Below are positions 8,329 through 28,966 of a stretch of DNA of 41,123 nucleotides, in pieces. The stretch is from NCBI RefSeq assembly GCF_013141825.1, contig NZ_RZNH01000047.1, forward strand, positions 1-41,123. Reading direction: 5' to 3'. The position numbers and the translations under genes were made by a program. This stretch comes from Marinifilum caeruleilacunae. Its GTDB lineage: Bacteria > Bacteroidota > Bacteroidia > Bacteroidales > Marinifilaceae. The first letter of the stretch is position 1, and every line of letters begins with the position of its first letter. The notes below the pieces were generated by a model, which had not been told where the DNA came from, did not search any database, and saw only the letters and a program-made list of their open reading frames with translations.

Positions 8329-8337
8329 AAAACTAAA

Positions 8338-8374: not shown

Positions 8375-8386
8375 ATATTTATTGAT

Positions 8387-8878
8387 ATGAAGAGAAAAAA
8401 TATACTAGTGCTACTTGCATCTTTCATGCTATTTGCAAGTGCCTGTAGCGATGACAGCGAGGTGGATTCTATTAAGCCTACAATTGACATTGGTTTTACC
8501 AATGCATTTCCTAATAATTGTGACACCATCTATTTTGGGGAGTCTTTCCAATTAAAACTACGATTTTCAGACAATGCTGAATTGGGTTCATACAGTATCG
8601 ACATTCATAATAATTTCGATCATCATTCACACAGCACCGAAGTAAGCGAATGTGATCTTGGCCCTGTAAAAGAACCTGTTAACCCATATGTTCTTATAGA
8701 TGATTATTCAATCCCACAAGGTTTGAAGGCATATGAAACCAACCTTACAATTTCAGTTCCGGCAACAAATGAAGGAGTTTTGCTGGATGAAGGAGATTAT
8801 CATTTTTATATCAGTTTAACTGATAGTGAAGGATGGTCGGTACAAAAAGGCTTAAGCATTAAAATGTTGCATCGATAG
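8387..8878 (+). CDS. DUF4625-like lipoprotein, second of two
   Basis: A 163-residue lipoprotein related in plan to the preceding one. A longer open frame begins inside the previous gene, but the ATG at 8387 gives a clean lipoprotein signal (MKRKNILVLLASFMLFASAC, Cys20) and so is the real start. The acidic SDDSEVDS after the cysteine suggests surface exposure. The domain contains a histidine cluster, NNFDHHSHSTEVSECD, and ends with LDEGDYHFYISLTDSEGWS, parallel to EPGDYHFDFVVTDMEGN in its neighbour, so the pair looks like a divergent duplication. Likely a metal-binding partner of the TonB receptor. Confidence 0.75.
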   Translation: MKRKNILVLLASFMLFASACSDDSEVDSIKPTIDIGFTNAFPNNCDTIYFGESFQLKLRFSDNAELGSYSIDIHNNFDHHSHSTEVSECDLGPVKEPVNPYVLIDDYSIPQGLKAYETNLTISVPATNEGVLLDEGDYHFYISLTDSEGWSVQKGLSIKMLHR

Positions 8879-12358: not shown

Positions 12359-13849
12359 TTATTTTTCCTTGTGAATCACAATGGTTTGAACCGCTTGTGC
12401 ATCTATCCTGAAAGAACTTTCTTGTTCACCCAGTGCTAGCTTGATCTCCTTGGCCTCCTCTTTCATATTCAATACCACTACTGCAATTGAACCATCTGGA
12501 TTTTGAGCCGCAGTTACCATCAATTCTTCATCGTTCAGCTCAAATCCAATTCTTGTAGCACCCGGGCGGATGTACTTGCTAAAATGAGCTAGAGTGTAGT
12601 ACATTGGAGTATAGTAAACCTCATCTTTCTTAGGGTCGACAATTACAGGAGCCAAACACCAGTTATTTGCCCAGTTTGGACCACCTTGAGTGTCAAGCAC
12701 CATATTCCAGTCAATCCATCCTTGAACCCAATTGTTTAAACAGCCAATAATATCTCGTGCATAACGATATACCGGAACATATTTTGGATGCAGGTGCTTT
12801 TGCTCTTCAGGAGCCCAGTCCCACCCCCAATCGGTTGCTTCTTTTTTCCAGTACCAGGCATCATCGTTCCAGTGAGGAACTTCAGCATCAACACAGGCTT
12901 CCGATTGAATCATCATCTTATTTGGAGCTTTCGCATAGGTATATTGCAATGCTTCAGGCATATAATCGAATGTACTTGCATACCAGTGAATGGCCATACC
13001 ATCGAAATATTTCGATGATTCTTCATCCTTATACATGATATCGGCCCATTCATTCAGCTCATCGCGATTTTGGTCGTAACCAAATACCTTAACATCATGT
13101 CCATCAGCTTTCAGTTTTGGTCCCAGGTGTTTACTTACAAAATCAACCATTTCCTCTGGTGTATAATGCATACTCTCCCAGTTGTAACCATTTCCCAATG
13201 GTTCATTTTCAACTGTCAAGGCCCAGATATCAATTCCCTCTTTCTTGTACTCGTTAATATACTTCGAGAAGAACAATGCCCAGGTATCGTAATATTCAGG
13301 CAATAGTTTTCCACCTTTCCAATCCTTATTGTCTTTCATCCAAACAGGAGCTGTCCATGGCGAGGACATAATCTTAAAACCATCCTTCGAAACTACCATT
13401 GCCTCTTTTATCATTGGAATGATATCATCACGATCTTCGTCGATAGAAAAATGCTTCAATTCCTTGTCTCCTTCAACCGGAGCGTAAGAGTAGTTGCTTA
13501 GCGAGAAATCGCAAGAATTAATATGGGTTCTGGTCAATGAATATCGTGCTCCATTTTCACCAAAATAGGCATCCAAAATTTGTTTTCGGTTTTCTTTCCC
13601 AAGCTGATTCATCAAATAGGCAGTAGACTCGGTAAATGAGCCTCCAAAACCAATAATTTCCTGAAATTTTTCATCAGGATTAATCCTGATTTCAACATCT
13701 GCCTTCGTGTTTTCTGATGCTTCAATTTTCTGAAGTTTGTTTCCTGCTGCCGATGTTTCGTAAACATCTACAAGTAGGCTATTGTCTTTTGAATTACAAG
13801 CCATCATACCAATACTTATCAATATGATCAATAATTTGTTTCGTTTCAT
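12359..13849 (-). CDS. GH30 family glucosidase/beta-1,6-glucanase lipoprotein
   Basis: A 496-residue lipoprotein (lipobox GMMAC, Cys18). It has the GH30 layout: a beta-sandwich strand at the N-terminus, then FQEIIGFGGSFTESTAYL, SLTRTHINSCDFS, SSPWTAPVWMKDN, the acid/base Glu216 in LTVENEPLG, and the nucleophile Glu317 in MMIQSEACVD, closing with a C-terminal beta domain ending in an AVQTIVI strand. GH30 members include beta-1,6-glucanases (subfamily 3) and beta-glucosidases (subfamily 1); either would deal with the beta-1,6 branches of laminarin. The residues after Cys18 (NSKDNS) suggest the periplasm rather than the surface. It follows a GPH transporter gene by 21 bases. Subfamily not determined. 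Confidence 0.9.
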   Translation of the reverse strand: MKRNKLLIILISIGMMACNSKDNSLLVDVYETSAAGNKLQKIEASENTKADVEIRINPDEKFQEIIGFGGSFTESTAYLMNQLGKENRKQILDAYFGENGARYSLTRTHINSCDFSLSNYSYAPVEGDKELKHFSIDEDRDDIIPMIKEAMVVSKDGFKIMSSPWTAPVWMKDNKDWKGGKLLPEYYDTWALFFSKYINEYKKEGIDIWALTVENEPLGNGYNWESMHYTPEEMVDFVSKHLGPKLKADGHDVKVFGYDQNRDELNEWADIMYKDEESSKYFDGMAIHWYASTFDYMPEALQYTYAKAPNKMMIQSEACVDAEVPHWNDDAWYWKKEATDWGWDWAPEEQKHLHPKYVPVYRYARDIIGCLNNWVQGWIDWNMVLDTQGGPNWANNWCLAPVIVDPKKDEVYYTPMYYTLAHFSKYIRPGATRIGFELNDEELMVTAAQNPDGSIAVVVLNMKEEAKEIKLALGEQESSFRIDAQAVQTIVIHKEK

Positions 13850-13870: not shown

Positions 13871-15307
13871 TTAATGTTTTACTTTTCCTCTTCGAGCAAT
13901 TAAGGCTTGTCTAATTTCGAGAGCTCTCTTTTCCGAAATGCTATATTTCATCATCATCCAAATGGCGATTAATGCAAATATGATTGGGATAATAATATCT
14001 GCCAACCTAAGATTTATCAGCGACTCAGCTGTTTGTGTCCCCGCATTTTGATTAAATCCAACCATTTTAAGCACTATTCCACTAACAAGCATAGCTAATC
14101 CGTTACCAATTTTTACCATGAGCCAATACACAGCTCCAAACATTCCCTCGCGGCGCGTTCCATTATTCAGCTCATCCAAATCGCAAACATCGGCGGTCAT
14201 CGACATCATTAGGGTAAACAAACCACCAATACCAAAAGAAATCAATGGCAATGGAATGAACATCAACCATGGGTTGGCCGGGTTAAATCCCCACCATTTT
14301 AACACATATCCTACAATTGAAAGTAATGTGGAAATAATGAAGGCATTTTTTTTACCAACTCGTGTTGATATCCTGGTAATAATAGGAATAATTAAAAACG
14401 CTGTAGCTGCAGCATTAATGGTACTATACATTGGAGGCCAGTAGCCTGCTTCTGTCATACTTCCATTAAAAATGTAATATAGAATAATAAAGTACGAGAA
14501 CTGTGCAATGGTCTGAAAGCCATTGAATATTAAAAATGTAGCTCCACACAGCTTCACAAATGGTTTACAGGTTAAGGTTTGTACAATTGCTTGCCAAAAC
14601 TCCTTTAAGTTAGATGTCATGTTTTTCATCGAAAGTTTCGACTCGCTTTGCGATTCTGGTAGCACCAATTCTTTACAAAACAATGCAGGAAGCGCTCCAA
14701 TTATAATACTTACACCACCTACCCATAAAGAAAGTACCCTTACTCCTTCGGTCGATTCTTTAAAAAACAAATCAGGATTTCCAATTAATGACCAGAACCA
14801 CGGAGCAATCATCCAAGCAAACTGACCAAAAACCTGACCTACAGCCATTAACCTGGTTCTTTCATTGTAATCTGGTGTCATTTCATAACCCAGACCAATA
14901 AATGGAGTGGAGTATATTGTAAATGAAATGAAGAAAACAATTGACAGAATCAGAAAGTAAATAAAATTATAGGCTTGTGAGTTTTCCGGATACAATTGCC
15001 ATAATATCATAAAAGAAATACCCGACAACATTGTTCCTAGCAGAATATAAGGTTTTCTTCTACCCCATTTTGATCTGGTGTTATCAGATAAAAAGCCCAT
15101 TATTGGATCAATTAAAGCATCAAAAATTTTGGGCAGAGCAGCAACCAAGCCAGCAAGAGCAGGATCCATTTTAAATCCGTAAATCAGATAGAACATAAAA
15201 ACGCCGAGGGCTGCCGGATAAAGGTTGATTGTTAATTGTCCTGCTCCATAAGCTGCTTTTTGTCCAAAAGGAACTTTGTCTTCTGCTGCTGTTTTATAGG
15301 GTGCCAT
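13871..15307 (-). CDS. GPH-family sugar:cation symporter, first of two in the PUL
   Basis: A 478-residue inner-membrane symporter. GPH hallmarks are DALIDPIMGFLSDNTRSKWGRRKPYILLG and, in the second half, MTADVCDLDELNNGTRREGMFGAVYW. It differs clearly from the distal GPH protein in the locus, so the two are not a recent duplication and may carry different oligosaccharides or glucose. The 189-base gap upstream holds an inverted-repeat element. The gene ends 21 bases before the GH30 gene. Substrate by context: beta-glucan oligosaccharides or disaccharides. Confidence 0.85.
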   Translation of the reverse strand: MAPYKTAAEDKVPFGQKAAYGAGQLTINLYPAALGVFMFYLIYGFKMDPALAGLVAALPKIFDALIDPIMGFLSDNTRSKWGRRKPYILLGTMLSGISFMILWQLYPENSQAYNFIYFLILSIVFFISFTIYSTPFIGLGYEMTPDYNERTRLMAVGQVFGQFAWMIAPWFWSLIGNPDLFFKESTEGVRVLSLWVGGVSIIIGALPALFCKELVLPESQSESKLSMKNMTSNLKEFWQAIVQTLTCKPFVKLCGATFLIFNGFQTIAQFSYFIILYYIFNGSMTEAGYWPPMYSTINAAATAFLIIPIITRISTRVGKKNAFIISTLLSIVGYVLKWWGFNPANPWLMFIPLPLISFGIGGLFTLMMSMTADVCDLDELNNGTRREGMFGAVYWLMVKIGNGLAMLVSGIVLKMVGFNQNAGTQTAESLINLRLADIIIPIIFALIAIWMMMKYSISEKRALEIRQALIARRGKVKH

Positions 15308-15496: not shown

Positions 15497-16579
15497 TTAA
15501 TTGAGCTCAGGAAATAATGCCTGCATTACCTTTTTGGGTTTGCGGTCAACTGTGAATATTCCCCAGTGCTTTTCAGCTCCTAAAGGGTTTGCTGTTTCAC
15601 CTTTCCAATCCTCGTCGAAAGCTTCGAAAAAGAAGGTGGTAATGTTCATTTCCTTCGACCACTTGTTCAACTCCTGGTAGTAACGCTCCTGCTTCTCTTC
15701 GCTAGCTCTTTCGCCAAATTCAGTTGCAATACTTGCCCATCCAGCTTCTGTAATCACAAGTTTGCTATCGGGGAATGCATTTCGTACATCCTGAACGTTT
15801 TGTATGGTATATGACATTCCTTCGTCAATGTCTTTTCCTTCCCACACCGGGTAAACATGAATCGAAACAAAATCAACAGTTTTTGCCAGTTCTTGTCCAC
15901 TTTTAATCCACCATTCGTAGTTATCGGCAACAGTTACCGGCTGCTCAATTTCTTTCTGCACGCTCTTCACATAAGAAATAATCGAATCGGTATCCACTTT
16001 GTGGTCGTTCCATTCAACCAATGCTTCGTTTCCCACATTTACAGCAATTACCGTTTCCGGATATTTCTTGGCTAAAGCAATTCCCCTTTGAATTTCTTCC
16101 TGGTTCAGTATCATGTTTTTATCCAATGTTTCCTGCGGAATAGGTTCCGTTAACCAAGAACAAGTTTCATGTGCACTTAACTCTGCCTTTAACCAAACGC
16201 CCAACATCACTTTAATATTCAGCTGATTTTCTTCAATAATCCTTAGAACTGCCTGCGAATTTTCGCCACAGTCGTACAGTCTGATTAGATTGAACAATGA
16301 ATCTTTCGATATGATTTTTAAATCTTCCAGCACTTCCGAATCACTAGGGTTTACGGCTCCATTTCCCCTGTCGGGATGTTGTCCGCTGCGAAATCCAGAG
16401 TAGGCCACAGCCCACGATGTTCCACCTAAAAGATCTGTTTCCTTTTGTTTGATTTCCATATTCTGCTTTGCTTCTTCCTGAATATTTGCATCCGATTTCT
16501 TGGCAGCATTCTTACAAGAGAACATGCCTATCGTAATGCATATCAGTACTGAAATATTTTTAATCGTTGAGTTTTTCAT
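15497..16579 (-). CDS. GH17 beta-1,3-glucanase lipoprotein
   Basis: A 360-residue exported GH17 enzyme. The signal has lipobox IGMFSC (Cys22), followed by a lysine- and glutamine-rich linker to about residue 52. The barrel begins at WAVAYSGFRSGQHPD; INVGNEALVEW after strand 4 provides the acid/base Glu185 and LVITEAGWAS after strand 7 the nucleophile Glu278. The protein ends with HWGIFTVDRKPKKVMQALF, shared in form with the next GH17. GH17 cuts beta-1,3-glucan or transfers it. The basic residues after the cysteine (KNAAKKSD) favour a periplasmic position. It would shorten imported laminarin fragments. Eleven bases separate it from the second GH17 gene. Confidence 0.88.
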   Translation of the reverse strand: MKNSTIKNISVLICITIGMFSCKNAAKKSDANIQEEAKQNMEIKQKETDLLGGTSWAVAYSGFRSGQHPDRGNGAVNPSDSEVLEDLKIISKDSLFNLIRLYDCGENSQAVLRIIEENQLNIKVMLGVWLKAELSAHETCSWLTEPIPQETLDKNMILNQEEIQRGIALAKKYPETVIAVNVGNEALVEWNDHKVDTDSIISYVKSVQKEIEQPVTVADNYEWWIKSGQELAKTVDFVSIHVYPVWEGKDIDEGMSYTIQNVQDVRNAFPDSKLVITEAGWASIATEFGERASEEKQERYYQELNKWSKEMNITTFFFEAFDEDWKGETANPLGAEKHWGIFTVDRKPKKVMQALFPELN

Positions 16580-16590: not shown

Positions 16591-17538
16591 TTAAGCTTTC
16601 ATTAGTTCGGCAAACTGATTCTCCATTACCTTTTTTGGCTTTCTATCGAGCGTAAACAATCCCCAGTGTTTTTCCGGTTCCATTGGTTCTGGCGAACCTT
16701 TCCACGATTCATCAAAAGCTTCGAAGTAGAAGCAAAGAATCTCCTCCTCTTCTGTCCATTTCATCAAATCCTGGTAGTAAACAGATTGAAAATCTTCGCT
16801 CACATTTCCTGGATCGATCCCTCGTCCATTAGAATTGGTTGCCCATCCTGCCTCGGTAATTACAACTGGTTTGTGTGGATATTTTTCAGCAATACTGTAA
16901 TAGTTCTGTTTTGTATATTCCAGGGCCTCATGAATATTCTTGTACTCCCAAACCGGGTAGGTATGAATGGAAATAAAATCAACAGCCTCTACCAGGTCTT
17001 TAATATGATCGAGCCAAGGCACGTAGTTTTCGCAAAAAGTAACTGGCTGCTTGGCGCCCTTTTTTATGATATTTACATATCGAATCACGCTTTCAACCGG
17101 AACGTAATGATCTGTCCAGCTAACTGTGGCCTCATTTCCTGCCGAAAGAGCAAACACAATATCAGAATACTGGTTTGCAAGTTGTATCAATTTCTCAATC
17201 TGATTGATATTGTGTTCCTTATTGGCAATCAATTGTCCTTCGGAATAAACGCCACCCCAGGGACAGGCAAAATTGTTCATTTCGGCACCAATGTATGCGC
17301 CCAGCATCACCTGGAAATCAAGCTTTTCATTGCGAATTACTTCGAGCACTGTATCAGTTTGCTCATCGCAGGCATAAAGTCGCAAGTATTTCCAGTGTCC
17401 TTGCAGAATTAAAAGGTCCTCCTTAATCTGTTCGTAGCTTGGAAAAATTCCTGCATCCGGACTCTGTCCTTCTCTAAATCCTGAGTAACAGATTGCCTTA
17501 TCAAATTTTATATTCAGTTCTTCAGTAATCTTCTTCAT
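16591..17538 (-). CDS. GH17 family enzyme without signal peptide (probably cytoplasmic)
   Basis: A 315-residue GH17 protein closely parallel to the exported neighbour: AICYSGFREGQSPDAG at the start of the barrel, ALSAGNEATVSW with the acid/base Glu136, VVITEAGWATNS with the nucleophile Glu229, and the same HWGLFTLDRKPKKVMENQF ending. It starts MKKITEELNIKFDKAICY with no hydrophobic segment and no upstream in-frame extension, so it should act in the cytoplasm. Together with the phosphorylase it suggests intracellular handling of beta-1,3-oligoglucosides, either hydrolysis to shorter substrates or transglycosylation. It lies 29 bases after the third GH17 gene. Confidence 0.85.
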   Translation of the reverse strand: MKKITEELNIKFDKAICYSGFREGQSPDAGIFPSYEQIKEDLLILQGHWKYLRLYACDEQTDTVLEVIRNEKLDFQVMLGAYIGAEMNNFACPWGGVYSEGQLIANKEHNINQIEKLIQLANQYSDIVFALSAGNEATVSWTDHYVPVESVIRYVNIIKKGAKQPVTFCENYVPWLDHIKDLVEAVDFISIHTYPVWEYKNIHEALEYTKQNYYSIAEKYPHKPVVITEAGWATNSNGRGIDPGNVSEDFQSVYYQDLMKWTEEEEILCFYFEAFDESWKGSPEPMEPEKHWGLFTLDRKPKKVMENQFAELMKA

Positions 17539-17567: not shown

Positions 17568-18452
17568 TTAGAATTTCAACTTTTCATTTTTATCCCAAAT
17601 GCCCCAATAGGCACCCACATCACCTTCGTCCGAAGTTTTCCATTCTTCATCGAACGAAGAGAAATAGAAGATTTCAATATCTTCCTCTTTCGACCAGTTT
17701 TGAGATTGAATGAAATATTTCATTGCATTTTCCTGCGAAGGTTCCGCTCCATGAAATGGTTCTCCAACATTTGGCCAACCGGTTTCCGAGATAATCACCT
17801 TTTTGCCTGCTCCGGCGCTTAATGCGCGGTTGTACATATCTTTCATGTACAGGTATGAATTTTCGAGACTACAGCCTTCCCAAAACGGATAACAGTTTGC
17901 AAGGATCACATCGCAAGCTTCGGTTACTTTAGGTCGGTTAGCGAACTCATAGTAGGCATCCACATAAGCCACAGGAATGCCAGGAAGTTCCTCTTTCACG
18001 CGATAGATGTATTTCAAAAGTTCCTCTTCCGTTAAATCTTCGCGATACAGCACTTCATTTCCCACAGCTACAATATCTGCGTAACCTGCTTTTGCAACTT
18101 CGATTACACCTTCAATTTCATTTTCGTTAATGCTTTGGTACTTCCCCAACCATGCTCCTACCATGGTTTTCAAACCAAATTCCCTAGCTATCTTCGGAAT
18201 CAATTCGTTTCCTTCAGTACATGAAAAAGATCGAATCCACTTGGTATGCGGACTCACAATTTCCATTCTTCTTCGAATCTGTTCCTCGCTAATTTGGGTT
18301 CCCGGCTCCTGTCCTTCCATATATGGACTAAAACAGATCCCATGCATTCCTCTATTTAAATGCTGATAGTATAGCGCTCGTAATTCATCTTGGCTCTTGT
18401 CTTCAAGATCAACCCCTGCCAAGGACATTAAATATTCACTTCTTACCGACAT
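17568..18452 (-). CDS. Divergent GH17 family enzyme without signal peptide
   Basis: A 294-residue GH17 protein, more distant from the other two: HGICFSPYMEGQEPGTQIS at the first strand, IVAVGNEVLYRED with the acid/base Glu133 and VIISETGWPNVG with the nucleophile Glu223. ETGWPN is closer to classical plant and fungal GH17 motifs than the EAGWA of its neighbours. It lacks any signal sequence, so a cytoplasmic location is expected. It directly follows the phosphorylase gene and a strong intercistronic hairpin. It may be a beta-1,3-glucanase or glucosyltransferase acting on imported oligosaccharides. Confidence 0.85.
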   Translation of the reverse strand: MSVRSEYLMSLAGVDLEDKSQDELRALYYQHLNRGMHGICFSPYMEGQEPGTQISEEQIRRRMEIVSPHTKWIRSFSCTEGNELIPKIAREFGLKTMVGAWLGKYQSINENEIEGVIEVAKAGYADIVAVGNEVLYREDLTEEELLKYIYRVKEELPGIPVAYVDAYYEFANRPKVTEACDVILANCYPFWEGCSLENSYLYMKDMYNRALSAGAGKKVIISETGWPNVGEPFHGAEPSQENAMKYFIQSQNWSKEEDIEIFYFSSFDEEWKTSDEGDVGAYWGIWDKNEKLKF

Positions 18453-18525: not shown

Positions 18526-21500
18526 TTAGTTTTTCGACATTGTATAATCAATTCTTCTCACAGAATCTTCTCTTCTAAATATGGATGCACTGTTCTCCTC
18601 ATCCATGATATTTCCAGGGATTAAAGTGCTGGTTCCATCTTTGTAGGTGATTTTTATCTCAGAAACTGAACCTTTTGTAAATACAATTGGAACCTTACAA
18701 AATGTTAAGGCCAGTTGACCCTGGTTCAATTCAATGTTTTGCTTTGTATCTTGAAGATCGTAGTACTCAAACTGCTCATTGTTTTTAAGAACCTCCTGCT
18801 CATTCAACAAAGGCAAATCAAAAACAATTTTCCCCTGATCGATACGGATACCCAGTTCTCCCATTCTCGAAATAAAATCTTCCTTCACCTGACCAGTCAT
18901 ACCTGGTTGTTTGGCTCCTGCATTTCCAGGAGTATGAGAATAAGCATCAGTTGGGAAAGCTCCATACAAGTCTGGCGATTTGTAAATTCCAATACCTGCT
19001 TTAATTTCGTAGTAGTGTTCTTTCAATCTACCAATTAGTTCGGCACTCAAGTTCTGATCGCTTGCCAGGAAAAAGTTCTCCTGTGTAGCAAGAAGCAGTT
19101 TGGAAACCATGTGCCAGTAAATGCTTCCCAGGCCTTCGTAGCCATAGAATGTTCCCGATCTTCCGGTAAACGACTGATGATCGAACATGCTTTCATATGC
19201 GTTCAACACAAGATCTCGATCGGCTTTTACCAATTCTGCATATTCAGAATTTAATCCATCCAGAATTCCATGTAGCACCTCTGCATTTCTAATTTTTCCA
19301 TTAAAATGGCAGTTTCCTGATTCATCAACCGAAACCAGCGCAGTATTCTTATTTTCAATTAATTTCTGAAGTAAGGATGATTGTGCGACCTGTTCTTTTG
19401 GAATGTTGTTCTTCTCGGTGAACCTGGCCAATTGCCTGTCGGGATACAAGATGTAACTAAACTGATCGGCACGGAACAAGGAACTTGCCTTTAAAGCGTC
19501 CAACACTTCCAGGCTTTCTTCAGCCGATAAGTACCCAGAACTTAGTACAGCAACCTGTCCTTCCAACATTTCATACAGGTAACGAATCGATATTTCATTA
19601 TCCGATATTGAAATCAGGTTATAAGCATGGTACAATTTGTCTTCTCGTTTATTGACACGAATCGATTGATCCATATAAGCCATTGCCAAGCTTGTAAATT
19701 CTACCAAATCGGCAACTTTCAGAGACTTTCGTTCTCCCGAGAAAGCATTGGTATAAATTGCTTCACGGTATTCAGTTCCAGCCAAACCTAGTACATCGGC
19801 AAAGTGCTTTCTGTCTTTGTTGGTAAAACCAGTATTCAACAAATTCGATTGCTCGTTGAACAAGTTAAAAATCTGATCCAACAACACTTTCACCTCTGCT
19901 GAAACGCTAATTTCTTCAACTGATAATTGAGCCAGCTTCTCGGTCCAGAACTTCAAAAATCTACGCAAGTAGTAAAGGGTTACCATAGAAACACCATTAC
20001 CCACCAATGCATTGTTTGCATCGTTCCATTCCGGACGCTGAGTATTCAGCCAAATTCCTGCTTCAGGGATAAAATTGCTTAGCTTGCTTAGTAAGGTCAC
20101 CAAAACTTTTTCCATCAGGTTAACCCTGTATATCTCGTTTCCTTGATGCAACAAGAAAGCATCGGCGCCAAGCTCTTTGTATTTGGCTTTTATTTCTTTG
20201 TTCAGATCAAAATCAAAACCGATGGTATCTTGCGGATTTTTGACAATCTGATCGTATGATTTAATTCTGTAAGGAACATTGGCATACACAAACATCTCCT
20301 TGCTCAAGAGTTCATCCAGCTTTCCAGGATGGAATTCGTTCGATAACTCCAAAAGCTTCTGCAAGTAGATAATCTGGTGATCGCCCCAATATCCGATGTA
20401 TGCCCATGGATCATCCGGGTCTGGGCATTCCCAGTCGATTCCTTCACGTGTAATTCGATATGGATTGTAACCATCGGCTGTAGAAGCATTCACGAATTTG
20501 CTAATCATTCCTTCCAGGTACTCAGGGAACGACCAGGCCAAAGCTTCCCAGTTTTGGAAAATATCTCTCCAGTTACCCTGATAATTTAATTTCGGGCTTC
20601 CATCTTCGTTTTTGGTTTCGATAGAGAACTGGTTCCATGGACGACTTGGATCGCCATGACGTCGGCTAAAAGTCAATGGAAGGTATTCCACGCAAATTCT
20701 TTGAAAATCGGAATTCGCTTTACTTCCTACCAAATTTAAAAGCTCACTGTATGAAATTTCATCTGATAAATCGTTCAGCCAGTTTTCAAACTGGGAGAAA
20801 ATTGCAGTGTTTGTCTGCTTCACAAACAGTTTAAAATCGGCAGTATTTACCTTGTAGGCATCAACAAAAATTCCACCTCTCATTACATTAAAAAGCGTAT
20901 TCGAGAAATGTCTGGCCGTACATAAACTGTCATCGCCAACCTGTAAACCATCGGCATCAGCTACAATTTTTATCAGGTTATCGGTTCCTAACTGAATATC
21001 TTTATTGATTTCAGAAAGAGCATCCGAATCACTTAAAATAAAATCATTCAAGTTTGAAACTGCAGTGCTGTCCTGGTTAATTTCAGCAATAATTAACCAC
21101 TCTTTGCTTCCTTGAGGAGTTAGCTCGAACTCGGCATTCAGCATGTATGCTCCACGTGTTGCTTTTACATCAACTTCGGTTTGCAGGCTTTCTCCTTTCA
21201 TGAAGTTTTGCTCTTGTTTGGCCGATAAAAGAATCTTCTTGTTTTCCAGTCCAAGCGACCAAACACTTGTACATTTCAACGATTCACTCGGCTCAGCCTT
21301 ATCTACCGGAATAGAACTCAACATATACAATCCCAATCCTGATTCGGATAGCAGTTCATTCTTTTTGTAAGCATCGAGCAAGTTACTGTATTCGCTCTGA
21401 AATGCATAATCAAATCCGTAAGGAATGATGTTTTGAATTCCATCCAAAACTTCAACACTTACATAAGTTTCGCCAGTGTTTTTAACCTTCGATTTTCTTA

Positions 21501-21978
21501 CAAATCCAAATTTTTCTGAATAATGCCATGCATACTCGAATGCAACACCAAGATCAAGATTAACCTCTTCGAAAATAATCTTGTTTCCATAGATGCTCTT
21601 GTACAGATTTCTCTGAATTTTATATACTTCATTCAAATTTTTTGCGAAAGGTTCCCACAAAAAAGTTCTCTCATTTTTTTCAACCAAGAATAAAGTCTTA
21701 CTACCTGTTATCCCCTTAAAATCGTGGATTTTATCAACAGTGTAATATGGAAACAATGCGTTGTCGCGATTTTTTCTACCAGCCGATAATGATCCGTTAC
21801 TTGATATAAACATCCAATGATCCGAATCACTTACCATGCTCATAAAGAAATCAGGCATTTGGTCTGAATTGCTAATCTTGTAGAACTTCTCATTGTTAAA
21901 GTCTACAAATTCTCCCTTAATTTCAGCCTCGCTGCAATTCAGGTTCGTGTTTCCCAGATAAATGTTACTCTTCTTCAT
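18526..21978 (-). CDS. Beta-1,3-oligoglucan phosphorylase, GH149-like
   Basis: A 1150-residue cytoplasmic protein, no signal peptide. Its size and layout (N-terminal beta-sandwich, linker, alpha/alpha-barrel catalytic domain, C-terminal extension) match inverting phosphorylases related to GH94, and the length matches GH149 (GH161 is the close alternative). Conserved blocks are RHGDPSRPWNQFSI, YQGNWRDIFQNWEALAWSF (about 465-485), and PDPDDPWAYIGYWGDHQIIY (about 513-533), where an aspartate acts as general acid. Ending blocks include GLGSIYWHMVSKLLLA. GH149 enzymes split beta-1,3-oligoglucosides with phosphate to alpha-glucose-1-phosphate. Placement between a sugar porter and three GH17 genes supports this. 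It conserves energy relative to hydrolysis. GH149 versus GH161 not settled by eye. Confidence 0.8.
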   Translation of the reverse strand: MKKSNIYLGNTNLNCSEAEIKGEFVDFNNEKFYKISNSDQMPDFFMSMVSDSDHWMFISSNGSLSAGRKNRDNALFPYYTVDKIHDFKGITGSKTLFLVEKNERTFLWEPFAKNLNEVYKIQRNLYKSIYGNKIIFEEVNLDLGVAFEYAWHYSEKFGFVRKSKVKNTGETYVSVEVLDGIQNIIPYGFDYAFQSEYSNLLDAYKKNELLSESGLGLYMLSSIPVDKAEPSESLKCTSVWSLGLENKKILLSAKQEQNFMKGESLQTEVDVKATRGAYMLNAEFELTPQGSKEWLIIAEINQDSTAVSNLNDFILSDSDALSEINKDIQLGTDNLIKIVADADGLQVGDDSLCTARHFSNTLFNVMRGGIFVDAYKVNTADFKLFVKQTNTAIFSQFENWLNDLSDEISYSELLNLVGSKANSDFQRICVEYLPLTFSRRHGDPSRPWNQFSIETKNEDGSPKLNYQGNWRDIFQNWEALAWSFPEYLEGMISKFVNASTADGYNPYRITREGIDWECPDPDDPWAYIGYWGDHQIIYLQKLLELSNEFHPGKLDELLSKEMFVYANVPYRIKSYDQIVKNPQDTIGFDFDLNKEIKAKYKELGADAFLLHQGNEIYRVNLMEKVLVTLLSKLSNFIPEAGIWLNTQRPEWNDANNALVGNGVSMVTLYYLRRFLKFWTEKLAQLSVEEISVSAEVKVLLDQIFNLFNEQSNLLNTGFTNKDRKHFADVLGLAGTEYREAIYTNAFSGERKSLKVADLVEFTSLAMAYMDQSIRVNKREDKLYHAYNLISISDNEISIRYLYEMLEGQVAVLSSGYLSAEESLEVLDALKASSLFRADQFSYILYPDRQLARFTEKNNIPKEQVAQSSLLQKLIENKNTALVSVDESGNCHFNGKIRNAEVLHGILDGLNSEYAELVKADRDLVLNAYESMFDHQSFTGRSGTFYGYEGLGSIYWHMVSKLLLATQENFFLASDQNLSAELIGRLKEHYYEIKAGIGIYKSPDLYGAFPTDAYSHTPGNAGAKQPGMTGQVKEDFISRMGELGIRIDQGKIVFDLPLLNEQEVLKNNEQFEYYDLQDTKQNIELNQGQLALTFCKVPIVFTKGSVSEIKITYKDGTSTLIPGNIMDEENSASIFRREDSVRRIDYTMSKN

Positions 21979-22066: not shown

Positions 22067-23623
22067 CTATTCCTTAACCAGAATTACTTCCAGTTCTTCA
22101 AGGGATTTCCCCTTGGTTTCGGGCAGCATTACAATGACAAATACAAGTCCTAATGCTCCGAATATTCCATATATTAAAAAGGTTGTGGCATTCCCAAGGT
22201 TCATCTGTTCCCATGGAAAAGCCAGCTGTACTATAAAACTTACTCCCGAATTAATCAGCCCCACAAATGATATGGCCAGGCCTCGTACCCGATTTGGAAA
22301 AAGTTCTGAAAACAAGACCCACATCACAGGGCCGATTGAAATCGCAAAAGAGGCTACAAAGCCAATAATTCCAGCCAAAACCAACCATGGGTTGATGCTG
22401 ATTGCTTTCGCGATAAATTCTGATTGGTGCTCTTTAAAAGTTTGTTCACCAACACTACTTAAGAGTGCATTATTAAATTCGATATCGCTTTCGAATACAA
22501 TATTTTTCATCTCATTCAATTGCGAAGGCTCAATAAAAACTGAACATTCGGCTATGCTCTTTTCGCTTAACTGGTAGGTGGCATTTCCAAAGCTTGCCGA
22601 TAGCACAAACATGGATACTGCAATACCAAACAAACCAAAAACCAGAAGAGGTTTTCTGCCCACCTTATCGATTAACCAAATGGCGAAAAGAGTAAATACA
22701 AGATTGGTTAATCCTACCAAAATGGCTTGTGAGAATGAGGCATCGGTTCCAATACCTGTTTGTTCAAATATCATTGGAGCATAAAAAAACACAGAGTTGA
22801 TTCCCGTAATTTGCTGTGTAATTGCAATCACTACTCCAATAATCAAAACCAACTTTAAGGATGGTTTAAATAACTCCTTAACAGAGATTCGTTCCTTACT
22901 TTTCGATGATTGAATGCTTCGGGCAATGTTTACCAACTGTTCTTTTGCTTTCGATTCACCCACTGCTTTAGTCATTACCTGAAGAGCTTCATCGTCGAGG
23001 CCATTCATGGCCAGCCATCGCGGACTTCTTGGCACAAAAAACAAGAGGAAAAAATAAAGCAAAGCAGGAATGGCTTCAAGTCCAAGCATCCATCTCCAAT
23101 TGTAGGCATCGAACTGCAGCCAGCTAGCCCAACCAGCAGTCGATTTCCCCAATTGTAAAATCAGGTAATTGGTAAAAAAAGCTACCGATATACCCAGTAC
23201 AATATTCAGCTGGTTAAAGGATACCATAGTTCCCCTAAGTTTTGGAGGGGCGATTTCGGCAATGTACATTGGAGCAATAATCAGCGATGCGCCAACTCCT
23301 ATTCCTCCAATCATTCTAGCCAAAACCAAGAGTAAAAAATTAGGAGCTATGGCTGATCCTAAAGCTGAAATAAAATATAATGCTGCCGCACATTTTAAGA
23401 CTGATCTTCTTCCAAACCTATCACTAACAGGACCAGCCAACATCATGGCCAGGGTTGCAGTAAGAGTCAGACAGCTTACAGCCCAACCCAGCTGAATTTT
23501 GCTAAGGTCGAACTGAGGCTCAATGAATTTCACAACGCCAGAAATCACCGACGCGTCGAAACCCATTAGAAATCCTCCTAAGGCAACAATTAAAGAAACA
23601 GCAGCACTATATTTTAAGTTCAT
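22067..23623 (-). CDS. MFS sugar porter (SP family)
   Basis: A 518-residue, 12-helix MFS transporter of the sugar porter family. Landmarks are GGFLMGFDASVISG in helix 1, DRFGRRSVL after helix 2, RMIGGIGVGASLIIAPMYIAEIAPPKLRG, PRSPRWLAM before the central loop, QQITGINSVFFYAP in helix 7, DKVGRKPLL, and the closing PETKGKSLEEL. A longer than usual insertion (about 345-405) precedes helix 9-10. It imports glucose or a gluco-oligosaccharide by proton symport or facilitation. It starts 3 bases after the first GH16 gene stops and lies 88 bases before the phosphorylase gene, so it likely feeds that enzyme. Confidence 0.9.
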   Translation of the reverse strand: MNLKYSAAVSLIVALGGFLMGFDASVISGVVKFIEPQFDLSKIQLGWAVSCLTLTATLAMMLAGPVSDRFGRRSVLKCAAALYFISALGSAIAPNFLLLVLARMIGGIGVGASLIIAPMYIAEIAPPKLRGTMVSFNQLNIVLGISVAFFTNYLILQLGKSTAGWASWLQFDAYNWRWMLGLEAIPALLYFFLLFFVPRSPRWLAMNGLDDEALQVMTKAVGESKAKEQLVNIARSIQSSKSKERISVKELFKPSLKLVLIIGVVIAITQQITGINSVFFYAPMIFEQTGIGTDASFSQAILVGLTNLVFTLFAIWLIDKVGRKPLLVFGLFGIAVSMFVLSASFGNATYQLSEKSIAECSVFIEPSQLNEMKNIVFESDIEFNNALLSSVGEQTFKEHQSEFIAKAISINPWLVLAGIIGFVASFAISIGPVMWVLFSELFPNRVRGLAISFVGLINSGVSFIVQLAFPWEQMNLGNATTFLIYGIFGALGLVFVIVMLPETKGKSLEELEVILVKE

Positions 23624-23626: not shown

Positions 23627-24463
23627 CTATTTTTTTTGATAAACTCTTACAAAGTCTATTTCCATTGTTTGCGGGAAAGCTTCCTGGTCGATTCCCTTTA
23701 CACTTCCCCAGGCACCGCCAACTGCAACATTTAATATCAGGTAAAAGGGTTTGGTGTAAGGCCATTTCGATTCTCCCAGGCCTTCATTTTTATACTCGAA
23801 ATACAATTGATCGTCTACATAACATTTCATTACATCTTCTGACCATTCCAGTATGTATGAGTGAAATTTTTCGGTGGCATCAGCAATATTGATGGTTGCA
23901 GTTTGCTGCGTTCCTTTTTGCCACTGATAATCTTTTGAGTGTGCAGAGGCATGAATTACTCCTGCTTCATGGCCCACATGTTCCATGATGTCTATTTCGC
24001 CAATATTTGGCCAGTTTCCATCATTGAAAGACCAATCACCAGGCATCATCCAAATGGCCGGCCAGGTGCCAATTCCATCCGGTAGTTTTGCCCTTACCTC
24101 AATCTTTCCATGCAACCAATCTGCTTTTGAATTCAATCGGGCTGAAGAATACTCTTTGCCGTCCATATTTTCATGACGAGCAGTGATGAACAGTACTCCA
24201 TTCTCTACCCAGGCATTTTCTTTCCTGCCTTGCGTATAATATTGCAATTCATTATTGCCCCATCCTTTGCTATTACCTTCCGTATCGTAAATCCACTTTG
24301 TGGAATCTGGCAATCCTTTGTAATCGAATTCATCGGACCATACCAGTTGATACTCACGCTCTTTCTTATGTTCTTCCTTTTTTGTATTGGCAAACTTACA
24401 TGCGGACATGAGAAGTAGAATGCCTACAAATAGGCTTATTTTTTTTAGCAGCATATGTTTCAC
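23627..24463 (-). CDS. GH16 laminarinase lipoprotein (single domain)
   Basis: A 278-residue GH16 endo-beta-1,3-glucanase. The lipobox LMSAC gives Cys22; the following KFANTKKEEHKK is basic and then mixed, so periplasmic placement is likely. The catalytic signature GEIDIMEHVG has nucleophile Glu156 and acid/base Glu161, in the laminarinase-type E-I-D-I-M-E spacing. Supporting blocks are LVWSDEFDYKGLPD, GWGNNELQYYT, TWPAIWMMPGDW and PFYLILNVAVGGAWG. It is one of two GH16 enzymes in the locus and lies directly upstream of the sugar porter gene (3 bases). The start could also be the second Met at 24454. Confidence 0.92.
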   Translation of the reverse strand: MKHMLLKKISLFVGILLLMSACKFANTKKEEHKKEREYQLVWSDEFDYKGLPDSTKWIYDTEGNSKGWGNNELQYYTQGRKENAWVENGVLFITARHENMDGKEYSSARLNSKADWLHGKIEVRAKLPDGIGTWPAIWMMPGDWSFNDGNWPNIGEIDIMEHVGHEAGVIHASAHSKDYQWQKGTQQTATINIADATEKFHSYILEWSEDVMKCYVDDQLYFEYKNEGLGESKWPYTKPFYLILNVAVGGAWGSVKGIDQEAFPQTMEIDFVRVYQKK

Positions 24464-24489: not shown

Positions 24490-25587
24490 TTATTGGTATA
24501 CTCTAACGTAGTCGATCTCCATTGTTTGAGGGAATATCGAATTATCGATTCCCTGAAGACCACCCCAGCTTCCTCCAACTGCAATGTTCAGAATGAAAAA
24601 GTGAGGTTTATTAAACGGCCAATTCGAAGCTGTTTTGTTCGAAGGAGAATAGGTATGGGTAATGTTATTCTCAGTATCCACATAAAATTGGATTTTATCT
24701 TCATCCCAAATCATACCATAAATGTGAAATTCCTCTTCGGCTGTTTCCAAAGATGCTGAGCTTCCATTTCCATCTCCGGCATATCCTGAAGGAGTATGAA
24801 CTGTTGCATGAATTACATTGGGTTCAAAACCTACATATTCCATGATATCAATCTCTCCACAAGCTGGCCATCCTACTTCGTCAAGATTTGCTCCAAGCAT
24901 CCAAATGGCTGGCCAAATTCCTGTACCCGAAGGCAGTTTCGCACGAATCTCCATTCTTCCGTAAGTAAACTCTTGCTTTCCCCAGCTAATCATTCGGGTT
25001 GAAGTATATGAACCTGCAACTTTATTGTCATTCACTTTTCGTGCAGTGATCACCAATTTGCCATCCTCGATATGCGCATTATCACCATTGGTATAATTTT
25101 GCAGTTCCTGGTTTCCCCATCCACCGTCACCAGTCTCAAAAGTCCAGTTGTCGGTATTAATTGTGGTCCCATTAAACTCATCAGACCATACCAAATTTTC
25201 ACCTTGCACATAGTCTGGATCATCACTTGCAATCGTAACAGTTTTAGTTACAGTTTTCGTATCGCTTAAACTGTTCATTTTACCCCAAACTGTTAAGGTA
25301 ATTTCATAAGTTCCTTTTTCAGGATAATGAATGCTTCGAACCGAAGTTTTGTCGGTTTCTTTTGCACTGGAACTACCATTTCCGTAATTCCACTGCAGGT
25401 ATAAGTAATCTCCTTCGGATGTATTGGTAAGGTTCACCAGATTAGGGTTATCCTGATCTATCTCAAGTTCAAAACCTGCTGTATATTCTTCTCCTTCGTC
25501 ACTCCCACTACTTGAACATGATGAAATACCAATTGTTGAAACAACAAGAAGCATTAGCATCCATATCGTATTCTTTACTTGAGTCAT
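24490..25587 (-). CDS. PKD-GH16 laminarinase lipoprotein, probably surface exposed
   Basis: A 365-residue lipoprotein (lipobox ISSC, Cys24) followed by an acidic serine-rich segment, SSSGSDEGEE, which resembles surface export signals. Residues ~38-121 are a PKD-type domain (LQWNYGNGSSS, HYPEKGTYEITLTV), residues ~130-365 a GH16 laminarinase with GEIDIMEYVG (nucleophile Glu245, acid/base Glu250), GWGNQELQNYT, IWPAIWMLGAN and PHFFILNIAVGGSWG. It would make the first endo-cuts in laminarin at the cell surface, with the PKD module as spacer or binder. The PKD module resembles that of the neighbouring SGBP. Confidence 0.92.
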   Translation of the reverse strand: MTQVKNTIWMLMLLVVSTIGISSCSSSGSDEGEEYTAGFELEIDQDNPNLVNLTNTSEGDYLYLQWNYGNGSSSAKETDKTSVRSIHYPEKGTYEITLTVWGKMNSLSDTKTVTKTVTIASDDPDYVQGENLVWSDEFNGTTINTDNWTFETGDGGWGNQELQNYTNGDNAHIEDGKLVITARKVNDNKVAGSYTSTRMISWGKQEFTYGRMEIRAKLPSGTGIWPAIWMLGANLDEVGWPACGEIDIMEYVGFEPNVIHATVHTPSGYAGDGNGSSASLETAEEEFHIYGMIWDEDKIQFYVDTENNITHTYSPSNKTASNWPFNKPHFFILNIAVGGSWGGLQGIDNSIFPQTMEIDYVRVYQ

Positions 25588-25658: not shown

Positions 25659-27425
25659 TTAATTCAATTTTCCTGATTTTACACCTTCTACGTGAGGACC
25701 TGATAGGTCATCGAAATAGAATTCGTGTGCACCGTCGCCGTTTCCAGGATTCACCATAATACGAATCACATTATAGAAATCGCTAGAGAATCGATCGTCA
25801 GTTGTAACATCTGAAGTAAACTGGTCGCCAGTCCAATCAAAACCTGCACCAACTCCTGCAAAGTCATACTCGGCAACTTCCCATGTATCATCTTCCTGGA
25901 TGGTATAGATTAAATCGTAAGTACCAGTTTGCCATGCATTGCCACCTTTATCGGTATTTTCAAGTTTTAGCAATACTTGCTGTCCTGCTTTACCATACAC
26001 CATCATTTTGAAAGTACTGATGCTGCTGATATCAAATCTATGACCTGCTGGCAATTGCATGTAAGCATTTGCCCATTGCTGATTTTCTTTAAAGTAGTGG
26101 AATACACTTGCACCACGGTTAGGGTAAATTCTATTCGGGTTGTCAACTACGTTTACAGCACAATCTTGTCCCAATACAGGAGCCAGTTCGAAATCACTGT
26201 TATCAACATACATTACCATTTGATCTAACAAGAATGGTACGTAAGTTGAATGGTGATTATCAACGGTAATAGATGAAGTAGATACCAAATCTTCGTTAGA
26301 AGCTTTTACAGTAACAGTAACTGGGTATGTACCTTTTCTCATGTATGTATACTCAATGCTTGCGTTGGCATCATCGGTTTCAACAAGTGCACCACCGTCA
26401 CCAAAGTCAACAGAAAATCCATTTACAAATAATCCGTCAGGAATTACAAGATCTGTAAGACTAACAGCCCATGTATTTTCAGTACCAGTTGTTTGAACAT
26501 CAACTGTGAAAGTTACGGTTGGCTTTACATATCCTTTAAGCACCATGGTATTGTACCATCTGTTTCCATCGGCACCAATACAACTTACTGCCAGCTTGGT
26601 ATCTGTAATTTCATCGATTCTAAACTCATTGTTTACGGCACCATAATTAAATCCGAAGAACGAAGGTTTTTCTGATGATAATACAATGTAATTTACTCCA
26701 TCTCTTTCTGTTAATGACCAATTTGCAGCTGCAGGAGTATAATTTACTCTTGCATCAGTACCATCAACTTCAACCGGATTCGAATAGTTAGGATCATCCA
26801 ATAGTAGATCTTTCACATAAGAAGTACCGTTGTTTACGTAGTCGAAAACAAAATCAACCAACTTAAATGTAAACTCATCGTCGTAAGCACCAGCACCAGT
26901 TTTCTGCAATGGACTTGCTGCCCACCATTCTGGCCAGTCGCCCCCTGCAGGGCCAATACCAAAGTGTCCCGATTCCAAGCTATCAACCACCCATGTTTTT
27001 CCTTCAGCTGCCGAAGCACCACCAGAAATCATTGTCAGTACCGGGCTATCCAAAAATGCATAGTCTGTTTCGGTATGCTCAATGGTAGTTGTTTTTACTC
27101 CTTCGCTTCCATCAGAAGCTGCAATGGTAAGTGTTACCTCGTAAGATCCTGGTAATGGATAGTATGCTGTCACCTGGTTTCCTTCGGCACTTGAACCATT
27201 TCCGAAATCCCACTTTACAGTCTGAATTCCCGAAAGAGGAGTTAAATTTTCAAAATTATAGTGAAATGCATCCTCACCCTGAGTCACTGTAAAGTTCATC
27301 TCTTCAGCGGTAGGAGCTGTGCCGATATTCAATTCGGACTTATCGAATTCATTTGGATCACAGGCAACCAACATCATCAACATTGCCAGTGCAATTCCAA
27401 ATCCTGATTTTATAATATTTTTCAT
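25659..27425 (-). CDS. Surface glycan-binding lipoprotein with PKD domains (SGBP, SusE/F position)
   Basis: A 588-residue lipoprotein (lipobox LMMLVAC, Cys22, then acidic DPNEFDK). It has a first PKD domain (about 45-115: VKWDFGNGSS, YYPLPGSYEVTLTI), a central beta-rich module (about 125-300), a second PKD domain (about 302-385: FSVDFGDGG, YTYMRKGTYPVTVTV) and a C-terminal beta-sandwich carbohydrate-binding-like module (about 395-580, ending in YNVIRIMVNPGNGDGAHEFYFDDLSGP). No catalytic motif is seen. It follows SusD by 20 bases, the place of SusE/SusF-like proteins, and should capture beta-1,3-glucan at the surface. Confidence 0.85.
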   Translation of the reverse strand: MKNIIKSGFGIALAMLMMLVACDPNEFDKSELNIGTAPTAEEMNFTVTQGEDAFHYNFENLTPLSGIQTVKWDFGNGSSAEGNQVTAYYPLPGSYEVTLTIAASDGSEGVKTTTIEHTETDYAFLDSPVLTMISGGASAAEGKTWVVDSLESGHFGIGPAGGDWPEWWAASPLQKTGAGAYDDEFTFKLVDFVFDYVNNGTSYVKDLLLDDPNYSNPVEVDGTDARVNYTPAAANWSLTERDGVNYIVLSSEKPSFFGFNYGAVNNEFRIDEITDTKLAVSCIGADGNRWYNTMVLKGYVKPTVTFTVDVQTTGTENTWAVSLTDLVIPDGLFVNGFSVDFGDGGALVETDDANASIEYTYMRKGTYPVTVTVKASNEDLVSTSSITVDNHHSTYVPFLLDQMVMYVDNSDFELAPVLGQDCAVNVVDNPNRIYPNRGASVFHYFKENQQWANAYMQLPAGHRFDISSISTFKMMVYGKAGQQVLLKLENTDKGGNAWQTGTYDLIYTIQEDDTWEVAEYDFAGVGAGFDWTGDQFTSDVTTDDRFSSDFYNVIRIMVNPGNGDGAHEFYFDDLSGPHVEGVKSGKLN

Positions 27426-27445: not shown

Positions 27446-28966
27446 TTAGTAACCTGGATTCTGTACCAACTTGAATTCTCCGTACGTTCTATCAATTTCA
27501 GATTGAGGAATTGGGAAATACTTTCTTGTTTCGTCCCAGGTTCTTTCTGAAGAAAATTCAGGAATACTTTCATTCAACAGAGCTGTATCACCCCATCGTA
27601 CCAAATCCCAGTAACGCATACCTTCTCCGAAGAATTCTCTTCTACGTTCCAGCTTAATATTCTCAGCTGTTGCAGGAATAGAGGCAACACCAGCTCTTGT
27701 TCTAACAGCATCAAGACAAGTTTCTGCAGTTAAACCAGATGTAGCTGCCTGACCGTGTACCACAATCAGTTCGGCTGCATTTAATAGAGCTTCCGAGTAA
27801 CGGAAAATACGTACATTGTTCTCGTAGTTCAAATCGGCAGTATATGGAGCATCGTTATACTCTTCGCGAGCTGCATATTTAGCCATAAAGTAACCAGTAT
27901 TCTGGAAACGAGCAGTATATGTTCCAGCTTCAAACTGGTTTACAGATGCTGCCAATCTTGTATCACCAGCTTCGTAAATATCCACAATTTCTGTACGAGC
28001 AGGACCAAATCCCCATCCTCCTTGATACTCAGTGCTACCGCTTAATAAATCGGTACCAGTTAATTCGTTTGGAGAAATAAAGGTTGGCAGGTTGGTTCCA
28101 TAACCAGTCCATGCAGCATCCCAGTCTTTTCCTTCTGCCAAATGATTTGCTTCAAAAATTGAACCTGAACCGAATTCACCAGCTCTGTCCCAAATTGAAG
28201 CATAGTCAGCCAACTGGAATTCACCACTGTTGTAAATTTCCTCCATATCGGCAAGTACCTCTGCATATTTGCTTTGATCTTTCTGATACATTACAATTCT
28301 TGCCTTCAACATCATGGCAGCAGCTTTGCTCGCACGACCATCGTCTACCGCACTTGTTTGTAATGGCAGTTTATCGCCTTCGATTGCAAAGTTTACATCT
28401 TCTATCAATTCTGCATAAATCTGATCGGCAGTAAACTGAGGAGCAAAATAAGGAGCTTCCAATTCTTCCTCGAAATAAGGAATGTTACCCCAGAATTTCC
28501 ATAACCAGTGTACATAGTATGCTCTTAAGAAACGAGCTTCTGCCTTGAATTGATTTAATTTATCTTCGTCAACACCTACTGCATTTTCACAAGCTAAAAT
28601 TACACCATTACAACGGCTTAAACCTGCATAGTAAATGTTCCAAAGTCCGCCTGCAGTTAAATCACCATTCAGGTTGTACTGCGACATATTATAAAGCACC
28701 TGCTGGTCACCCGCAGAACCTCCACCTTTGTATACATCATCAGATAAAAGGTCCGACATGAATGTTACACTGTTGTACTGAAAATCGGCGTAACTATCGA
28801 ATAGCAATATCTGGTAAGCAGATCCAAGGTTTGATAAAATCGCTCCTTCGGTTGCATCACCTCCTGCCTCTTGAGAAGAAGTAGGCTCTACTGTTAAAAA
28901 TTCATCGCTACAGGCTGTAAAACCTATTAAAACAGCAAGGAATAATGTTTTTATATATTTATTCAT
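27446..28966 (-). CDS. susD: SusD/RagB-type outer-membrane lipoprotein
   Basis: A 506-residue SusD homologue (lipobox GFTAC, then SDEFLTVEP, the usual start of mature SusD proteins and an acidic surface-export signal). The TPR-like helical body contains ARFLRAYYVHWLWKFWGNIPYF and the C-terminal RRREFFGEGMRYWDLVRWGD, both hallmarks of RagB/SusD proteins. It caps the SusC transporter and binds the oligosaccharide before import. It lies 18 bases after the SusC gene. The partner and the enzymes in the locus point to beta-1,3-glucan; the symbol refers to the family, not to the starch-specific gene. Confidence 0.95.
   Translation of the reverse strand: MNKYIKTLFLAVLIGFTACSDEFLTVEPTSSQEAGGDATEGAILSNLGSAYQILLFDSYADFQYNSVTFMSDLLSDDVYKGGGSAGDQQVLYNMSQYNLNGDLTAGGLWNIYYAGLSRCNGVILACENAVGVDEDKLNQFKAEARFLRAYYVHWLWKFWGNIPYFEEELEAPYFAPQFTADQIYAELIEDVNFAIEGDKLPLQTSAVDDGRASKAAAMMLKARIVMYQKDQSKYAEVLADMEEIYNSGEFQLADYASIWDRAGEFGSGSIFEANHLAEGKDWDAAWTGYGTNLPTFISPNELTGTDLLSGSTEYQGGWGFGPARTEIVDIYEAGDTRLAASVNQFEAGTYTARFQNTGYFMAKYAAREEYNDAPYTADLNYENNVRIFRYSEALLNAAELIVVHGQAATSGLTAETCLDAVRTRAGVASIPATAENIKLERRREFFGEGMRYWDLVRWGDTALLNESIPEFSSERTWDETRKYFPIPQSEIDRTYGEFKLVQNPGY

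Follow-up and report, generated by a model that had tools for sequence, protein, structure and literature searches.

We analysed a 41,123-nucleotide stretch of DNA from Marinifilum caeruleilacunae (contig NZ_RZNH01000047.1, positions 1 to 41,123; hereafter, the window) around a gene assigned to glycoside hydrolase (GH) family 149, which contains β-1,3-glucan phosphorylases. The gene is part of a run of 15 consecutive genes on the minus strand, which starts with susC (at 32119) and ends with an MFS_2 symporter (at 9029). The gaps between the genes of the run, as given by the coordinates of the open reading frames (ORFs), do not exceed 189 bp. Spacing this close points to a single transcript or a small number of them. 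According to the Pfam and NCBIfam scans, the order of the products is SusC, SusD, a lipoprotein with the PKD domain, two GH16, a sugar porter, GH149, three GH17, an MFS_2 symporter, GH30, a TIM barrel, a protein without a family match, and a second MFS_2 symporter (Table 1). The combination of susCD with GH149, GH17, GH30 and GH16 in one run agrees with the feature list of laminarin polysaccharide utilization loci (PULs) that we assembled from PMC5827456, PMC13188888 and PMC10108472, with GH30 and GH16 compared at the level of the family and not the subfamily. Thus, the gene lies inside a laminarin-type PUL, with the sugar porter upstream and the three GH17 genes downstream, as supposed in an earlier description made without database searches (the sequence-only reading).

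The ORF at 18526–21978 is real; it starts with ATG and encodes 1150 amino acids (aa). The sequence-only reading gave no strand, and the plus-strand reading of this region contains many stops. The only NCBIfam match of the protein is the equivalog model NF058639 (GH149_beta_1_3), with a score of 1704.6 bits (cut-off 1150) over residues 17–1146. A search against all PDB sequences at E ≤ 1 returned three matches. The best of them is 6hq6, the GH149 enzyme Pro_7066 (1283 bits, residues 8–1146). It is followed by GH161A 9qqk with 53.6 bits and by 9h8v, a chain named cellobiose phosphorylase, with 51.7 bits, and the best stretch shared with these two is residues 529–708. At E ≤ 0.001, Pfam gave no family for the protein and thus no match to PF17167 (GH94); the only PF17167 match in the M. 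caeruleilacunae genome is on another contig. The blocks of GH94-related phosphorylases noticed earlier therefore exist at the level of motifs and not as a Pfam match. The best match is neither a hydrolase family nor GH94, and both GH94 and GH161, which had been named as the alternative to GH149, were rejected on scores. Searching the same genome (5.27 Mb, 202 contigs) with the protein gave one match.

The predicted active site comprises W651, N652 and D653 (WND, with the catalytic Asp653), R471 and D472 (RD), E948 and H956. In Pro_7066, the active-site residues are W651, N652, D653, R470, D471, E951 and H959 (PMC6771811). The WND and RD motifs, the Glu and the His are invariant in 92 of the 92 aligned GH149 sequences. 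The alignment consists of the window protein and 91 of the 92 GH149 ORFs from the loci described below; the ORF of L031 was omitted, as it is cut by the contig end at 986 aa. The window protein also has E987, Y990 and E991, equivalent to Glu990, Tyr993 and Glu994 of the surface sugar site of Pro_7066. Its alignment with Pro_7066, seen in part, has short gaps through the regions of Dom 1 and Dom 2, the extra domains within the catalytic domain of GH149 enzymes. By profile score and active site, the protein is a GH149 β-1,3-glucan phosphorylase.

Export signals were called by a simple rule based on hydropathy and the lipobox. As an internal control, the rule was applied to close relatives; those of GH30 have an export signal by it in 55 of 56 cases. 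By this rule, GH149 has no signal peptide, as was supposed earlier, and the same is true for 91 of the 92 GH149 ORFs of the loci (one is flagged 'sp'). The rule classes both GH16, the PKD protein, SusD, GH30 and the last of the three GH17 (GH17A) as lipoproteins and assigns signal peptides to SusC, the regulator and the TIM barrel. The first two GH17 (GH17B and GH17M) and the protein without a family match have no export signal.

GH17B and GH17A are above the Pfam cut-off for GH17, and GH17M is below it (22.1 bits against 28.2). The best PDB match of GH17B is the β-1,3-glucanosyltransferase 4wtp, which we take to be the R. miehei enzyme. Residues E133, E223, Y136, W191 and E192 of GH17B are identical in 65 of 65 sequences, including that of the window, and 64 of its 65 relatives are leaderless by the rule. 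The Tyr136-Trp191-Glu192 triad is tied to transfer in MlGH17B of Muricauda lutaonensis (PMC11005184). Thus, at the level of sequence, GH17B has the catalytic Glu pair, the triad and the leaderless start of the MlGH17B type. GH17M has Val at the position of Tyr136 and Trp-Glu at the other two, and, like it, all 21 of its close relatives lack a leader by the rule. Its best match, 6FCG, is the endo-laminarinase FbGH17A (PMC13188888). This match and the Val suggest that GH17M is probably a cytosolic endo-acting enzyme. The close relatives of GH17A are lipoproteins by the rule in 14 of 15 cases.

We searched the M. caeruleilacunae genome for enzymes that could act on the same oligosaccharides. No GH1 was found in the 202 contigs. 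There are six GH3, none of them on the window contig, and all have export signals by the rule. The single GH94 is elsewhere, and its best matches are cellobiose phosphorylases. With no GH1 and all six GH3 apparently exported, cleavage in the cytosol probably proceeds by phosphorolysis. Of the families covered by the search, GH149 is likely the only cytosolic one that can break laminari-oligosaccharides down to glucose and glucose-1-phosphate; Pro_7066 breaks down laminaritriose as far as glucose (PMC6484121). There is a second phosphorylase locus in this genome (L115, G000:C50:66000-80500), with a GPH symporter, the GH94 nearest to cellobiose phosphorylases, SusC, GH30 and GH3. Its GH30 is below the cut-off of the model for the endo-1,6-β-glucanase BT3312 (249 of 700 bits).

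The locus is very probably a canonical laminarin PUL with a phosphorolytic cytosolic step. The scheme we propose is built on gene order, families, catalytic residues, conservation and the heuristically called export signals; the substrates, the compartment of each step, transport, the direction of the reaction and co-regulation are its proposed part. GH16 on the surface together with SusCD would take in laminarin fragments, which the lipoproteins GH17A and GH30 would shorten and debranch in the periplasm. The MFS_2 symporter would carry linear β-1,3-oligoglucosides into the cytosol. There, leaderless GH17B and GH17M may rearrange or shorten the longer or branched chains for GH149, which would remove glucose units as α-glucose-1-phosphate at the expense of phosphate. 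Saving of ATP, as the sequence-only reading had it, can be inferred from phosphorolysis yielding glucose-1-phosphate, and the last glucose of each chain would still need a kinase.

We scanned contigs with the GH149 protein, and of 590 confirmed stretches the 80 best were taken as loci. Together with 12 loci of 20 kb from relatives, this gave 92 loci (L022–L113). Genes were labelled by the best BLAST match at 1e-8 to the window proteins, and the weak labels are loose (TIM158 at 25–30%). The 80 contig-scan loci are mostly from Bacteroidota, and some contigs are labelled as Gammaproteobacteria (SAR92, Porticoccaceae, Cellvibrionales). A few single contig labels are from other phyla, and these contigs may be mis-binned. 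In 49 of the 80 loci, GH149 is flanked by 8 kb or more in either direction. These 49 contain GH16 in 42 cases, GH17 in 41, a close GH17B in 36, GH30 in 38 and GH3 in 10; SusC was found in 13, and a flank of 10 kb often ends before susC. A relative of the symporter next to the GH17 genes (13871–15307) is present in 42 of the 49, and the sugar porter is present in 12. The symporter is therefore preferred as the importer. The sugar porter is less likely in this role, although the two are nearly equal in the 12 loci of relatives (sugar porter in 10, symporter in 12). Fourteen ORFs labelled as relatives of the symporter measure 775–799 aa, and some are probably MFS-GH17 fusions (MFS, major facilitator superfamily).

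In the 12 loci of relatives, susC, susD, GH16a, GH17A, GH17M and GH17B are each present in 11. GH16b was found in all 12, in L113 as a label at 31% identity only. L113, from another family, has just GH149, the two symporters and this GH16. GH3 was found neither in these 12 loci nor in the run of the window. In the congeners, GH149 is whole in four and cut by a contig end in the fifth. A close GH17B is present in 61 of the 92 loci. On three contigs labelled SAR92, Cellvibrionales and Porticoccaceae (L050, L073 and L089), GH17B, joined by GH17M in two of them, is next to GH149 in divergent orientation. The leaderless set is thus not confined to contigs with Bacteroidota labels.

We also counted the genes over whole genomes. 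The M. caeruleilacunae genome is included in every tally, relatedness is ignored, and the class and phylum samples share genomes. The hypergeometric values likewise take no account of relatedness and do not serve as probabilities. GH149 was found in 14 of 58 relatives, with 13 over the cut-off, and in 18 of the 198 genomes of the class sample. In the class sample, all 15 genomes with GH17B (E ≤ 1e-40) and all 13 genomes with GH30 (E ≤ 1e-100) have GH149. GH16 (E ≤ 1e-40) is present in 52 genomes, 18 of which have GH149, so that all 18 GH149 genomes have GH16. In the phylum sample of 395 genomes, 70 have GH149, 37 have GH17B, and 35, from nine families, have both. The two GH17B genomes without GH149 (G324 and G373) have frames of 543 and 552 aa at 31% identity; counting them as other proteins was a judgement made after seeing them. 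Over the class and phylum samples, 45 distinct genomes have both GH149 and GH17B. In seven of them (G108, G145, G249, G264, G280, G365 and G569), there is no GH17B match on the GH149 contig; in G280 and G365, GH17B is near the contig start, and linkage may just be broken by assembly. A dependence specific to GH17B is weakened by the GH30 control. The link extends to the whole module and may only reflect the shared locus. Thus, GH149, GH30 and GH17B travel as a module, in which GH17B is not singled out. In the class sample, no genome with a close GH30 or GH17B as in laminarin PULs lacked GH149, so phosphorolysis looks like the rule there.

Several points weigh against a phosphorolytic laminarin PUL. 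The export signals come from the rule and not from SignalP. The families searched in the M. caeruleilacunae genome were GH149, GH1, GH3, GH94, GH17B, GH30 and GH16 only, and a cytosolic β-glucosidase could sit in a gap between the 202 contigs. The 20-kb loci of relatives contain susC only in part. The surface sugar site is not universal in GH149: Tyr990 is kept in 66 and Glu991 in 82 of the 92 sequences, and Glu987 is poorly conserved (Glu in 39, Asp in 43). Finally, phosphorolysis is reversible.

This reversibility opens the opposite reading, in which GH149 mainly builds short β-1,3-glucans from glucose-1-phosphate and GH17B branches them into a cytosolic reserve. GH149 enzymes that have been characterised use glucose-1-phosphate to elongate glucose and oligosaccharides (PMC6484121), and MlGH17B forms β-1,6-branched oligosaccharides, for which its authors proposed storage (PMC13188888, PMC11005184). 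We consider such a synthetic role improbable, as the GH149 gene is between the genes for uptake and for hydrolysis, and GH16 accompanies GH149 in every GH149 genome of the class sample. In addition, phosphate in the cytosol is normally above glucose-1-phosphate. It is hardly credible that the protein is a GH161- or GH94-type phosphorylase that differs in chain length or linkage (e.g., β-1,4). The distant kinship to 9qqk and 9h8v is outweighed by the scores to the GH149 equivalog and 6hq6, and the neighbouring glucanases belong to GH16, GH17 and GH30.

Somewhat less remote, though still unlikely, is that GH149 is a minor scavenger and the imported sugar is mostly glucose that is set free by hydrolysis in the periplasm and enters through the sugar porter. 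Monosaccharides are the main cargo of the sugar porter family, six exported GH3 are encoded in the genome, and GH3 accompanies GH149 in some contig-scan loci. GH3 can also replace GH149 in Muricauda clusters (PMC13188888). However, GH3 is absent from the run and from the loci of the 12 relatives, the MFS_2 symporter is better conserved than the sugar porter in the contig-scan loci, and GH149 persists in the congeners.

A further question is why cells importing laminari-oligosaccharides retain an internal transglycosylase, and the cytosolic pairing of GH17 with GH149 offers a test of it. It is possible, if doubtful, that GH17B (here with GH17M) is a functional partner of GH149, in which case the glucanosyltransferase would rearrange the imported chains for the phosphorylase to finish. 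We modelled this comparison on the MalQ-MalP pair of E. coli. The two enzymes could, just as tentatively, be its β-glucan counterpart, possibly via a transient branched cytosolic β-glucan. MlGH17B acts poorly below a degree of polymerization of 5 (DP5), frees laminaribiose and forms β-1,6 links (PMC13188888). An exo-acting phosphorylase would be impeded by such links if no other enzyme took the branch off. A simple MalQ role is thus weakened by the preference for DP5 and longer and by the β-1,6 products. In the accessible literature, with most subscription journals outside the reach of the search, we found no proposal of GH17B and GH149 as a unit of disproportionation and phosphorolysis; both are discussed within one PUL in PMC13188888.

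Table 1. Genes of the laminarin-type PUL in the window and the matches on which their assignment is based
Feature	Position	Strand	Evidence
GH149 β-1,3-oligoglucan phosphorylase (by sequence), 1150 aa	18526..21978	-	NF058639, 6hq6, invariant active site
GH17B, leaderless, glucanosyltransferase type	17568..18452	-	4wtp 1.6e-33; E133, E223, Y136/W191/E192
GH17M, second leaderless GH17, nearer endo-laminarinases	16591..17538	-	PDB 6fcg 1.5e-34
GH17A lipoprotein, probable periplasmic endo-laminarinase	15497..16579	-	PF00332 36.5 bits; lipobox
MFS_2 (GPH-type) symporter, likeliest oligosaccharide importer	13871..15307	-	PF13347 237 bits; TIGR00792 190.1 (below cut-off of 231.35)
GH30 lipoprotein	12359..13849	-	PF02055 269.9 bits; lipobox
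Exported TIM-barrel glycosidase, weakly like GH158/GH2	11352..12350	-	PF02836 39.2 bits; GH158 chain 9oro 3e-8; signal peptide
Leaderless 295-aa protein, predicted galactose-mutarotase fold	10441..11328	-	Structure prediction
Second MFS_2 (GPH-type) symporter	9029..10381	-	PF13347 369.9 bits
Sugar porter family MFS transporter	22067..23623	-	TIGR00879 357.5 bits (cut-off 237.8)
GH16 lipoprotein, laminarinase-like	23627..24463	-	PF00722 86 bits; lipobox
GH16 lipoprotein with PKD domain	24490..25587	-	PF00722 87.7 bits, PF00801; lipobox
PKD-domain lipoprotein, probable surface glycan-binding protein	25659..27425	-	PF18911 67.9 bits; lipobox
SusD	27446..28966	-	PF07980 93.5 bits
SusC TonB-dependent transporter	28985..32119	-	PF07715, PF00593, PF13715
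Sensor-regulator (Reg_prop, Y_Y_Y; weak GerE), 5' of susC	32431..35343	-	PF07494 31.3, PF07495 27.3, PF00196 22.4 bits (last below cut-off of 23.5)

The sensor-regulator 5' of susC is the probable regulator of the PUL. By analogy with the role of GH30_1 in PMC13188888, the GH30 may be a β-1,6-glucosidase that removes side chains. Relatives of the TIM barrel with more than 45% identity are present in 23 of the 92 GH149 loci. The protein at 10441–11328 has no credible match in Pfam or among PDB sequences, and comparison of its predicted structure with VIA-align indicated a galactose-mutarotase fold. The fold alone is not proof of epimerase activity, since the periplasmic domain of YidC and the N-terminal domain of cellobiose phosphorylase are also among the matches to this β-sandwich. 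According to the prediction, such a fold would fit sugar handling in the cytosol. In L026, a relative of this protein is fused to an exported-type TIM barrel, which would place it outside the cytosol. Near the contig edge, the window contains a gene of a phage-integrase-type recombinase (1011–2228, minus strand) beside a gene with a helix-turn-helix motif and an S24 peptidase (259–1008). Two consecutive DUF4625 genes (7876–8878, plus strand) follow a TonB-dependent receptor and a FUR-family gene, and this is possibly a metal-uptake locus.

Laminarin, an algal storage sugar, is a major marine carbon store. The sequence-only reading considered the phosphorolytic arrangement unusual, on the ground that most laminarin PULs rely on hydrolysis. 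This premise is unsupported, as GH149 has been known from Bacteroidetes PULs since a 2018 publication and has turned up again in bloom transcriptomes. The founding paper of the family already described such PULs with GH3 and/or GH30_1 and with GH17 and/or GH16 (PMC5827456). GH149 laminarin PULs were reported again in Formosa (PMC6246565) and Muricauda (PMC13188888), and in metagenome-assembled genomes of North Sea blooms (PMC10108472) and in polar sediments (PMC10811738), the latter two with metatranscriptomes. Overall, the earlier interpretation is partly supported.

The window protein is similar to Pro_7066 (PDB 6HQ6/6HQ8) over its full length, in the active site, in the missing targeting peptide and in the surface Glu/Tyr/Glu. 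GH17B shares with MlGH17B the leaderless start and E133, Y136, W191 and E192 in the same numbering. Pro_7066 is metagenome-derived, and the poor action below DP5 and the β-1,6 links are known for MlGH17B. The GH161 enzyme PapP and the GH94 laminaribiose phosphorylases are also β-1,3-glucoside phosphorylases, and their scores to the window protein are far lower. GH94 shares the clan and active-site residues with GH149 (PMC6771811); PapP does not split laminaribiose, whereas the characterised GH149 and GH94 do (PMC6484121). As in the variant 1 laminarin PUL of Formosa and its relatives and in the Muricauda PUL, GH149, GH17, GH30 and MFS occur together, GH16 is present in most, and GH17B is leaderless. 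In contrast to these PULs, here GH17B and GH17M directly follow GH149, GH17M is an extra leaderless enzyme, and the symporter is stand-alone rather than an MFS-GH17 fusion. The GH30 has a lipoprotein signal, in contrast to the Muricauda GH30_1, which was reported without a signal (PMC13188888). Thus, clusters of this kind are already on record for many marine bacteria, and the finding is correct and largely ordinary. It extends the known phosphorolytic route to one more Bacteroidota lineage, with two leaderless GH17, one of which has the glucanosyltransferase triad, and with the observation that the sampled genomes with GH17B, apart from the two at 31% identity, also have GH149.

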